From positions 248,001-312,000 of the forward strand of contig NZ_QQRR01000002.1 of the NCBI RefSeq assembly GCF_003439925.1: a DNA stretch of 64,000 nucleotides. Reading direction: 5' to 3'. Every line of letters begins with the position of its first letter. Position 1 is the stretch's first letter. This document shows, piece by piece, positions 56,942 to 59,247 of the stretch. The notes under the pieces were generated by a model, which was not told where the DNA came from, ran no database searches, and saw nothing but the letters and a program-made list of their open reading frames with translations. The position numbers and the translations under genes were made by a program. The DNA is from Haloprofundus halophilus. Its GTDB lineage: Archaea > Halobacteriota > Halobacteria > Halobacteriales > Haloferacaceae.

Positions 56942-59068
56942 ATGGGCAATGACTACTCACCCAACCGTGGCCTCTACCCGGAGGTGGTCTCGATGACCGT
57001 ACGGTTCGGGTGCAACGACGGCGGCGACGGCATCGAAGTCGTCGACCCCGTCGAGCGCCACCGATACGAACTCGGGACGCCGAATCCGGTCGACCCCGAA
57101 CCCGTCGACACCGACGAGTTTCGGTTCCCCGTCGACGCCGCCGTCTCGTTCCGAACGTCGTCGCTGACGCTGCCGACGGTCGTCCCGATCTACGTCCGCG
57201 ACACCGACGGGACGATGCTCGCACACGTCACTCCCTCGGACTCGCTCACGCTCCCCGACGGCGAGTACGCCGTCGAACTCTGTACGCCAATCAAGATGTA
57301 CCTGCGCGTGTCGAGCGGGCTCACCGTCGACCGCACGCAGCAGCGTCTCGACTTCGGCGCGGAGACGACGGTATCGCTGGGCGGGCGCTCGCACCACGAG
57401 CACCCGGCCGGAACCATCACCGTCGGCGACTCGGTCGAGGACGTGATGCGCGCCGTCTCGCTGTTCGGGTCGGCGATGAAGACGACGACGCCGGAGCGGT
57501 CCTACCCGACGCTCCGCGGTCACCCGCCGACGGTCGAACTCGGCGAGACGTTCGATGCACCGGACGACGTCGTCGCCCCCGAGACGGGCATCCGCATCGA
57601 ACTCCCGCGCGAACGCTCGTACGTCCACACGGCCGCACCGCTCGCGTACTACCTCGGTGCACGCGTCGAACCCGGTCCAGTGGCTCGCCTCGTGACCGAC
57701 TCGGGCTTCGAGCACCGACTCGACACCTGCGAGGGCGTCGAGAAAGAACTCGAGCGCGTCTTACGTCACGTGTTCTTCCTCGACTGCCTCTGTCGGACCG
57801 AGGGACTATACAAAGTCGACCTCCACGAGCGTCGCGCGGTCGAATCGACCGCCGACATCGACTTCGAACGGCTCTACGAGTTACCCTCCGACGAGCGACT
57901 CGAAGCGTACCTCTCGATTCCGTGCGAGACGCTGGAACCGCACCAACCGGAGTGGAAACTCGTCAGCCACGTCGCGCCGACGGCCCAGAGCGCAGAGCTA
58001 CTGCCGTTTCTCGTCGACGACCTCGCAATCGTGCGCACGCCCACGAAAACTGAGGCGTCGACCGCGCCGAAGATACAGGTCGACGCCGTTCAGGAGTTCC
58101 TCCGCGACAGTGACGAGTTCACCCGGAGTACGGCGGCACAGCCGTCGTCGATGGAGTTCGTCGAACCCGAGTCGGCCGACTCCGTCGAGCAAGCGTGGGT
58201 CGGCGACGGAGCGCCCGTCGGCGCGAACAAGGCCACCATCGAAGCGTATCGCAACCGACTCAGTCGGACGGTGGCCGACGACGACGACATCGACATCGTC
58301 GTCGTCTGCAACGACGCCCAGATGAGCGAGGAGCGTGACGACATCGACCGGGTGTACGGGTCGCGCGACGAACTCCCGTTCGACGTCCGCATCCACCGAT
58401 CACTCACCACCGACGAGTTGGCCGAGGTGCTCCGCGAGGAGACGGAGTTCCTCCACTACATCGGCCACATCGACGACGGCGGCTTCGAGTGCACCGACGG
58501 CCGCCTCGACGCGCGCGAACTCGACGACGTGGGTGTCGACGCGTTCCTGTTGAACGGCTGTACGTCGTACGAACAGGGACTGTCGCTCATCGAGGCCGGA
58601 GCCATCGGCGGTATCGTCACGCTCTCGGACGTCATCAACAGCGGCGCAGTGCGCATCGGTTCGACGCTGGCGCGCCTGCTCAACGGGGGCTTCCCGCTGT
58701 CGGTCGCGCTCGAGATCGCTCGCGGCGAGAGCATCGTCGGCAATCAGTACGTCGTCGTCGGTGATGGTGGCCTCGCCATCGCGCAGGCCGAGAGCGGGAC
58801 GCCGCTGCTGTGCGTTGTCGAAGAGTGCGAGGATAGTGAGCGCTATACGGTCCAAATTCGAGGATATCCCACTGACCGGTCGGGAATGGGTGGGCTCATC
58901 CTCCCGTATGTCTCTTCTAACGAAGAGTACACGCTCAACTCGAACAGCCAACTTTCGTTCGAGGTATCTAAATCGGAGTTGGCGGAGTTGCTACAGCTCG
59001 AAGAGATGCCCGTCCGCCTCCGTCACGAACTCCGGTGGAGCAACAAGATTCCGCTGTACGAGCTTTAG
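56942..59068 (+). CDS. CHAT-domain (caspase-like) protease
   Basis: 708 residues from ATG 56942; a later ATG near 56992 (MTVRFG) is an alternative. The C-terminal ~200 residues are a CHAT peptidase, a caspase/separase relative. The catalytic His is His509 in 'LHYIGHIDDGGFECTDG', the catalytic Cys is Cys540 in 'FLLNGCTSYEQGLSLIEAGA', followed by the typical 'IGGIVTLSDVINSGAVRIGS' and 'LLNGGFPLSVALEIARGES'. The N-terminal ~450 residues are beta-rich then helical and carry no known sensor domain ('VVPIYVRDTDGTMLAHVTPS'). CHAT proteases act in programmed death and defence. Its stop overlaps that of the opposing 46-residue membrane peptide gene. Probably cytosolic; the trigger and substrate are unknown. 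Confidence 0.78.
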   Translation: MGNDYSPNRGLYPEVVSMTVRFGCNDGGDGIEVVDPVERHRYELGTPNPVDPEPVDTDEFRFPVDAAVSFRTSSLTLPTVVPIYVRDTDGTMLAHVTPSDSLTLPDGEYAVELCTPIKMYLRVSSGLTVDRTQQRLDFGAETTVSLGGRSHHEHPAGTITVGDSVEDVMRAVSLFGSAMKTTTPERSYPTLRGHPPTVELGETFDAPDDVVAPETGIRIELPRERSYVHTAAPLAYYLGARVEPGPVARLVTDSGFEHRLDTCEGVEKELERVLRHVFFLDCLCRTEGLYKVDLHERRAVESTADIDFERLYELPSDERLEAYLSIPCETLEPHQPEWKLVSHVAPTAQSAELLPFLVDDLAIVRTPTKTEASTAPKIQVDAVQEFLRDSDEFTRSTAAQPSSMEFVEPESADSVEQAWVGDGAPVGANKATIEAYRNRLSRTVADDDDIDIVVVCNDAQMSEERDDIDRVYGSRDELPFDVRIHRSLTTDELAEVLREETEFLHYIGHIDDGGFECTDGRLDARELDDVGVDAFLLNGCTSYEQGLSLIEAGAIGGIVTLSDVINSGAVRIGSTLARLLNGGFPLSVALEIARGESIVGNQYVVVGDGGLAIAQAESGTPLLCVVEECEDSERYTVQIRGYPTDRSGMGGLILPYVSSNEEYTLNSNSQLSFEVSKSELAELLQLEEMPVRLRHELRWSNKIPLYEL

Positions 59069-59205
59069 GGTCCGGCGACCGTTCCCGCTGCCGCCGCCGC
59101 GGCGTTTCCTGCCTGTGAGAGAAGCAGCATCATCGTGAAGACGACGCCGACCATCCGGGGGTTGTTTTTGAGGTAGTTCGCCATCGCAGAGTCGTTCTGG
59201 CTCAT
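59065..59205 (-). CDS. 46-residue membrane peptide (DUF7503-like)
   Basis: ATG 59205 to TAA 59065. The protein begins 'MSQNDSAMANYLKNNPRMVG' and continues with a hydrophobic segment 'VVFTMMLLLSQAGNAAAAA' and a short end 'GTVAGP'. Small haloarchaeal proteins with 'NPR(M/L)(V/I)G..FT...LLSQAG' are widespread and probably span the membrane once, possibly with a cleavable signal after Ala-x-Ala. The last bases overlap the CHAT gene's stop, tail to tail. A TATA-like box lies about 30 bases upstream. The conserved motif and promoter make this a real gene despite its size. Confidence 0.7.
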   Translation of the reverse strand: MSQNDSAMANYLKNNPRMVGVVFTMMLLLSQAGNAAAAAAGTVAGP

Positions 59206-59231
59206 ACTACAGACGACACCCCCCGAGATAA

Positions 59232-59247
59232 TGAGTATATTTAAACA
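59232..59247 (-). promoter_or_regulatory. TATA-like promoter of the 46-aa peptide gene
   Basis: On the minus strand the sequence reads gtgtttaaatatac. The tttaaatata core lies about 28-38 bases before ATG 59205, the normal distance for a leaderless haloarchaeal transcript. A long AT-rich stretch (to 59275) lies upstream of it. The remaining gap to 59439 shows no gene. Confidence 0.55.

Follow-up and report, generated by a model that had tools for sequence, protein, structure and literature searches.

At one locus of Haloprofundus halophilus, a gene for a 708-residue protein with a predicted cysteine peptidase active site runs tail to tail into a gene for a peptide of 46 residues, raising the question of whether the two belong together and what the peptide is for. 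The locus lies in the window, the whole stretch of 64,000 nucleotides that was analyzed here, and positions are counted from its first letter.

The CHAT peptidase gene and its convergent neighbor

The larger gene (56942..59068, + strand) encodes a CHAT-domain (clan CD, caspase/separase-like) cysteine peptidase, an assignment that draws on the open reading frame, the His509/Cys540 dyad and the fold. The HxxGH and N-x-C-x-S contexts of the dyad are both present. The codons for the catalytic His509 (in LHYIGH; 58466..58468, + strand) and Cys540 (in NGCTSYEQG; 58559..58561, + strand) were placed from the reading frame coordinates, and both fall in invariant alignment columns. The sequence-only reading of this locus had proposed a CHAT protease and had named variation at these two residues as evidence against it; both are invariant in 56 of 56 homologues and likewise in a 55-row alignment. 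The AlphaFold2 model of the protein (pLDDT 88) retrieved separase (5fby; 8e-9), gingipain (1e-6), a SAVED-CHAT filament protease (8tl0; 5e-7) and the TPR-CHAT protein of Craspase (5e-3) in a Foldseek search. As judged by this modeled fold and the active site, the window protein is a CHAT-type peptidase with predicted proteolytic activity, as had been claimed, although Pfam misses the window member: the protein has no Pfam match at E values up to 1 and none in NCBIfam or PADLOC, while the Pfam CHAT model (PF12770) matches 28 of the 55 aligned homologues (best value, 1.3e-5). A profile of the family gave no match to PDB sequences, and relatives there were found by fold search only. The start codon is uncertain, residues 1 to 17 being unconserved and modeled with low confidence; a weaker TATA-like box (TTATAC) lies 5' of the ATG. 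The protein has no evident signal peptide and is presumably cytosolic, and no recognized peptide-binding domain was found in its N-terminal region.

The small open reading frame (59065..59205, - strand; 46 residues, MSQNDSAMANYLKNNPRMVGVVFTMMLLLSQAGNAAAAAAGTVAGP) is a real gene and a member of Pfam DUF7503 (PF24335; E value, 2.9e-21), a family of unknown function, scoring 75.2 bits against a cutoff of 27. Its reading as a precursor peptide also draws on segment-wise dN/dS, described below. The reading frame coordinates confirm that the two genes converge and that their stop codons overlap (59065..59068, both strands), as first noted from the sequence; this overlap is not conserved among relatives. 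The peptide gene had also been credited with a TATA box of its own, and inspection of the sequence did locate an AT-rich, TATA-like box, GTTTAAATATAC (TTTAAATATA; 59235..59246, - strand), approximately 30 to 40 nt 5' of the peptide ATG. An AT-rich region is found upstream of the peptide gene at the other four Haloprofundus loci as well.

Pairing and gene neighborhood in the Halobacteria

The proposal that the small gene lies beside CHAT genes more often than expected by chance was decisively upheld: all 143 of the 143 DUF7503 genes examined for their surroundings converge tail to tail on a CHAT gene, and none was found scattered away from one. Three sets make up this number. The matches listed for 170 genomes of the family include 150 DUF7503 genes, of which 105 have a convergent CHAT neighbor (105/105 convergent, 104 within 180 bp); of the other 45, which had no CHAT gene among the matches listed, 18 were fetched and 18 were paired; and outside this family but within the class, 20 of 20 genes were paired as well. 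Both DUF7503 genes of the host genome, which has three CHAT paralogues, converge on a CHAT gene. Viewed from the CHAT side, a convergent peptide is present at 78 of 79 evaluable named loci, 70 of these 78 peptides ending in Gly-Pro (GP), and within the family each DUF7503-positive genome is also CHAT positive. DUF7503 occurs in 335 of 391 Halobacteria genomes and in 72 of 84 genera. Most sampled Haloferax genomes have one CHAT/DUF7503 pair, and the DUF7503 model also has a match in Haloferax volcanii. We regard CHAT and DUF7503 as almost certainly a functional pair. The pairing looks haloarchaeal, because no convergent peptide was seen beside distant CHAT homologues of a non-haloarchaeal family (f19; L219 to L222), which come from three further genera in the phylum.

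A third group of CHAT paralogues, approximately 32 to 35% identical, has no DUF7503 detectable by Pfam. At 19 of 21 inspected loci of this group, a convergent peptide is nevertheless found whose layout agrees with that of DUF7503: HPR is followed by a hydrophobic run and an A-x-A-like site, and the tail is longer, with GP at or near its end. The copy of this group in the host genome (L081; C2:972392-974314) has a peptide ending in ...NAHSTSTGP, and the other loci with an HPR...AxA...GP peptide that Pfam does not recognize are L089, L090 and L191 to L206. The CHAT copies at L084, L087 and L088 have no recognizable peptide.

The literature search found no paper mentioning DUF7503 and none on haloarchaeal CHAT proteins. 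For the PF24335 family, no description was found of the obligatory CHAT partner positioned tail to tail, of the division into leader, core and GP, of the forms with tandem cores or of the diverged third-group peptides. RefSeq labels most plasmid copies of the CHAT gene "hypothetical protein." On a Halorussus plasmid (NZ_CP100001.1), a DUF7503 gene is present at L223:6089-6229 and missing from the gene table of the PLSDB record, so databases may undercount DUF7503.

Signal-transduction genes are frequent around the pair. A DUF7504 gene (PF24336) lies directly upstream of CHAT on the same strand at 47 of 100 loci and is fused to a HalOD1 signaling domain in some of them; on a Natronosalvus caseinilyticus plasmid, a HalOD1 gene and CHAT share 4 nt. 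A HalX response regulator is found on the peptide side at 23 loci. In the host genome, DUF7504 (L082:4142-4819) precedes the second CHAT paralogue (L082); it is absent beside the window copy. Because DUF7504, sometimes fused to HalOD1, so often precedes CHAT, a role in peptide processing or sensing is favored. A death or defense response, which had been considered from the known functions of CHAT proteases, finds no support: the pair is nearly universal in the class, PADLOC gave no match for CHAT, the peptide or the DUF7504 neighbor, a scan of IMG/VR viral contigs found no relative of the pair, and the genes around it are those of signal transduction.

Anatomy and variants of the peptide

Alignment of 141 well-formed peptides resolved a conserved leader, a cleavage-site-like segment and a variable tail. 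The leader consensus is [NH]P[RK]M-x-G-V-L-F-T-x-x-L-L-L-[ST]-Q-A-G-x-[VA]-A-A, represented in the window by NPRMVGVVFTMMLLLSQAGNAAA, which extends from the NPR motif to the A-x-A site (59095..59163, - strand). The features of a Sec signal peptide are present, namely, a positive n-region, an h-region of 7 to 15 residues and small residues at -3/-1, and the -3/-1 signal peptidase rule holds in 139 of the 141 peptides. The sequence-only reading had described a one-helix membrane peptide. A hydrophobic run does exist, but it comprises only 12 to 13 residues (in 129 of 141 peptides) and is followed by A-x-A, so a signal peptide fits better than a stable transmembrane helix. Positive residues stand on the N side of this run, so that the positive-inside rule makes an extracytoplasmic tail probable. 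Its sequence features make the peptide look more like a precursor than like a simple membrane helix. Conservation of the leader exceeds that of ordinary signal peptides, so this segment may have a specific role in docking or in the membrane.

The tail is nine residues long in 107 of the 141 peptides, consisting of approximately seven fast-evolving residues and then an almost invariant Gly-Pro; in the window it is AAAGTVAGP (59068..59094, - strand). The core varies at every position, and 131 of the 141 peptides have distinct tails. Tails differ between paralogues of one genome, and orthologues of different species can share one. GNTSVIYGP is the predicted nonapeptide in several Haloferax species. 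The terminal GP is kept in 135 of 153 raw matches, whatever the length of the intergenic gap, and every Gly codon and every Pro codon, four of each, is in use. Among close pairs, dN/dS was 0.05 for the leader, 0.06 for the A-x-A segment and 0.40 for the variable core, the last value indicating relaxed or fast evolution without exceeding 1 and coming from only 25 close pairs. In the same 25 pairs, GP showed no nonsynonymous change (pN, 0). GP is not absolute, as eight named loci end otherwise. Among the tails without it, at L135, L139, L148, L151, L164, L169 and L224, are GGTIS, GHSI, GGAIR, SISGI, GGTIR and GSTIG. Such tails are a possible natural clue to the position of the mature end.

Some lineages have dispensed with the leader. 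In 9 of 12 Haloplanus genomes (array loci L011, L012, L015, L016, L019, L021, L024, L026 and L027), it is replaced by a start peptide followed by 2 to 13 tandem tail units, for example YTADGNGGGISGP. The repeat unit,.[TN]ADGN[GS][GS][GA][IV]SGP, holds GNGGGISGP, which corresponds to the nonapeptides predicted after A-x-A in leader-bearing sisters (GNSGAISGP and SNGGGISGP). Within most arrays, the units vary synonymously (pS up to 0.58) and scarcely in amino acids (pN of at most 0.03), the exceptions being two short arrays, L016, with two units, and L027. The amino acids of the units are homogenized inside a genome, and genomes tend to differ in version. Array and leader forms are interleaved on the CHAT tree, which forces at least two changes between them. 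In Halococcus (L127 and L132), the peptide is leaderless and contains cysteine (...VACCGVTDVSGASACTYSGP), and it keeps a ...CTYSGP ending.

Because the Haloplanus arrays multiply the tail alone and Halococcus keeps the tail without the leader, the tail appears to carry the function, the hydrophobic part being dispensable. From these sequences, we consider it very probable that the "...GP" tail is the functional unit of the peptide gene. The same forms weaken the earlier suggestion of a membrane effector, for they keep or multiply the tail without a hydrophobic segment, and they mean that Sec export cannot be universal.

Possible roles of the pair

The CHAT/DUF7503 pair is probably an undescribed archaeal system for peptide processing or peptide signaling. 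The best explanation of the whole, which we judge to have about an even chance of being right, is a single module in a signaling neighborhood, in which a "...GP" peptide specific to the pair is made as a precursor and is either matured by the CHAT peptidase or controls it. The 46-residue gene would encode a precursor in which a conserved leader resembling a signal peptide is followed by an A-x-A resembling a cleavage site and by a short GP-ending peptide, usually of nine residues. Signal peptidase in leader forms, and an internal protease in the multicopy forms of Haloplanus, would free the tail as a peptide specific to lineage and paralogue. The cognate cytoplasmic CHAT peptidase would process the precursor or be switched by the peptide, and the output would feed the DUF7504, HalOD1 and response-regulator genes that often adjoin. 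We infer export, release, the CHAT-peptide interaction and signaling; for the interaction in particular, that CHAT cleaves or is regulated by the tail, the balance tips slightly in favor.

The main rival is an intracellular protease-substrate pair without intercellular signaling, in which the ...GP tail of a membrane-anchored or cytosolic peptide would be a docking or cleavage motif for CHAT and the cut itself, made inside the cell, would be the output, much as with Csx29 and Csx30 of Craspase. That the peptide is a CHAT substrate is plausible, as had been proposed at the outset: the pairing is strictly one to one, GP is conserved, CHAT is presumably cytosolic with no evident signal peptide, and the Haloplanus tandem tails would offer CHAT many sites, with TAD before the core in each unit. 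The rival as a whole nevertheless seems rather unlikely, as the tail should face outward under the positive-inside rule, every position of the tail core varies, which is not what a protease recognition site would show, and the A-x-A site is nearly invariant. Improbable, in our estimation, is an inhibitor or antitoxin, with a toxic CHAT silenced by its cognate tail as a pseudo-substrate. Each CHAT paralogue does have its own tail, and the peptide is missing from genomes without CHAT; however, the pair is nearly universal and usually present in one to few copies per genome, no PADLOC model matches it, the tail is predicted to be extracytoplasmic, and the three CHAT copies without a recognizable peptide (L084, L087 and L088) also speak against silencing.

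A conserved leader, a hypervariable core and multicore versions are the usual pattern of RiPP precursors, and cyanobactin precursors have cores with a terminal P and a short spacer after it. The DUF7503 peptides show this leader, core and multicore pattern, so that the tail could be a core peptide excised, and perhaps macrocyclized, by CHAT or a partner. Several identical cores per precursor, the mark of a multicore RiPP, occur only in the Haloplanus arrays and not in the window copy, and this maturation is very unlikely given that no recognized modifying enzyme beyond DUF7504 stands beside the pair and most cores stop at GP, lacking a follower sequence. Antisense control by the converging ends had also been suggested. 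As a reading in which the CHAT mRNA is the target and the peptide is incidental, it has in its favor the stop overlap found here and in about 30 others. It is hardly credible and was rejected: the gaps span -26 to more than 150 bp with equal conservation of the peptide, so the overlap is not conserved, and strong purifying selection on the peptide codons, together with the use of all four Gly and Pro codons, places selection at the protein level.

The preferred reading, a pair-specific peptide precursor with its CHAT peptidase, can be set beside known systems. The Gram-positive RRNPP and arbitrium propeptides (Phr, PapR and AimP) have a precursor of approximately 45 residues with a signal-peptide-like leader and a hypervariable short C-terminal peptide, encoded beside the partner gene. 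The haloarchaeal propeptide shares the leader and the hypervariable C-terminal peptide; unlike these systems, its partner is a CHAT-fold protease rather than a TPR-fold receptor or regulator, the genes are convergent and archaeal, and there are a GP end and multicore forms. To our knowledge, peptide-based signaling in archaea is essentially undescribed. The nearest solved folds to the window CHAT protein, the SAVED-CHAT filament protease (8tl0) and separase (5fby), share only 12 to 16% identity with it, and the haloarchaeal protein, unlike them, has no SAVED or cohesin context. In Craspase, a type III-E CRISPR system, the TPR-CHAT protein Csx29 has Csx30 as its substrate, so that here too a CHAT-fold cysteine peptidase is genetically tied to one partner protein (PMC10028731). 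The haloarchaeal pair differs in having neither TPR nor a CRISPR effector, in its tiny partner with a hypervariable tail, in its convergent genes and in being nearly universal in the class.

Two observations in Haloferax volcanii may bear on the pair. Its quorum sensing depends on a secreted, heat-stable signal of at most 3 kDa, acts via the HalOD1 protein DdfA and leads to disk formation; the signal resisted proteinase K, and the authors favor a non-peptide small molecule (PMC12240190, PMC10869688). This resistance argues against an ordinary peptide as the signal, and the quorum system has no reported link to CHAT or DUF7503. H. volcanii also has caspase-type activity, although it is said to have no caspase homologues, and the paper reporting the activity ties no gene to it (PMC3615174). 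The haloarchaeal CHAT family is a candidate source. Both links, to the caspase-like activity and to the quorum signal, are speculative.

More tentatively, DUF7503 and CHAT might serve haloarchaeal peptide communication or self-recognition, with an exported, lineage- and paralogue-specific GP nonapeptide made or sensed via its cognate CHAT, and such a system could cover both the quorum signal and the caspase-like activity of Haloferax. With these findings, an uncharacterized domain and a hypothetical protein, present in hundreds of genomes, become a defined two-gene system with explicit predictions, and the questions of peptide signaling and caspase-like activity become directly testable in the genetically tractable Haloferax, where the module occurs.
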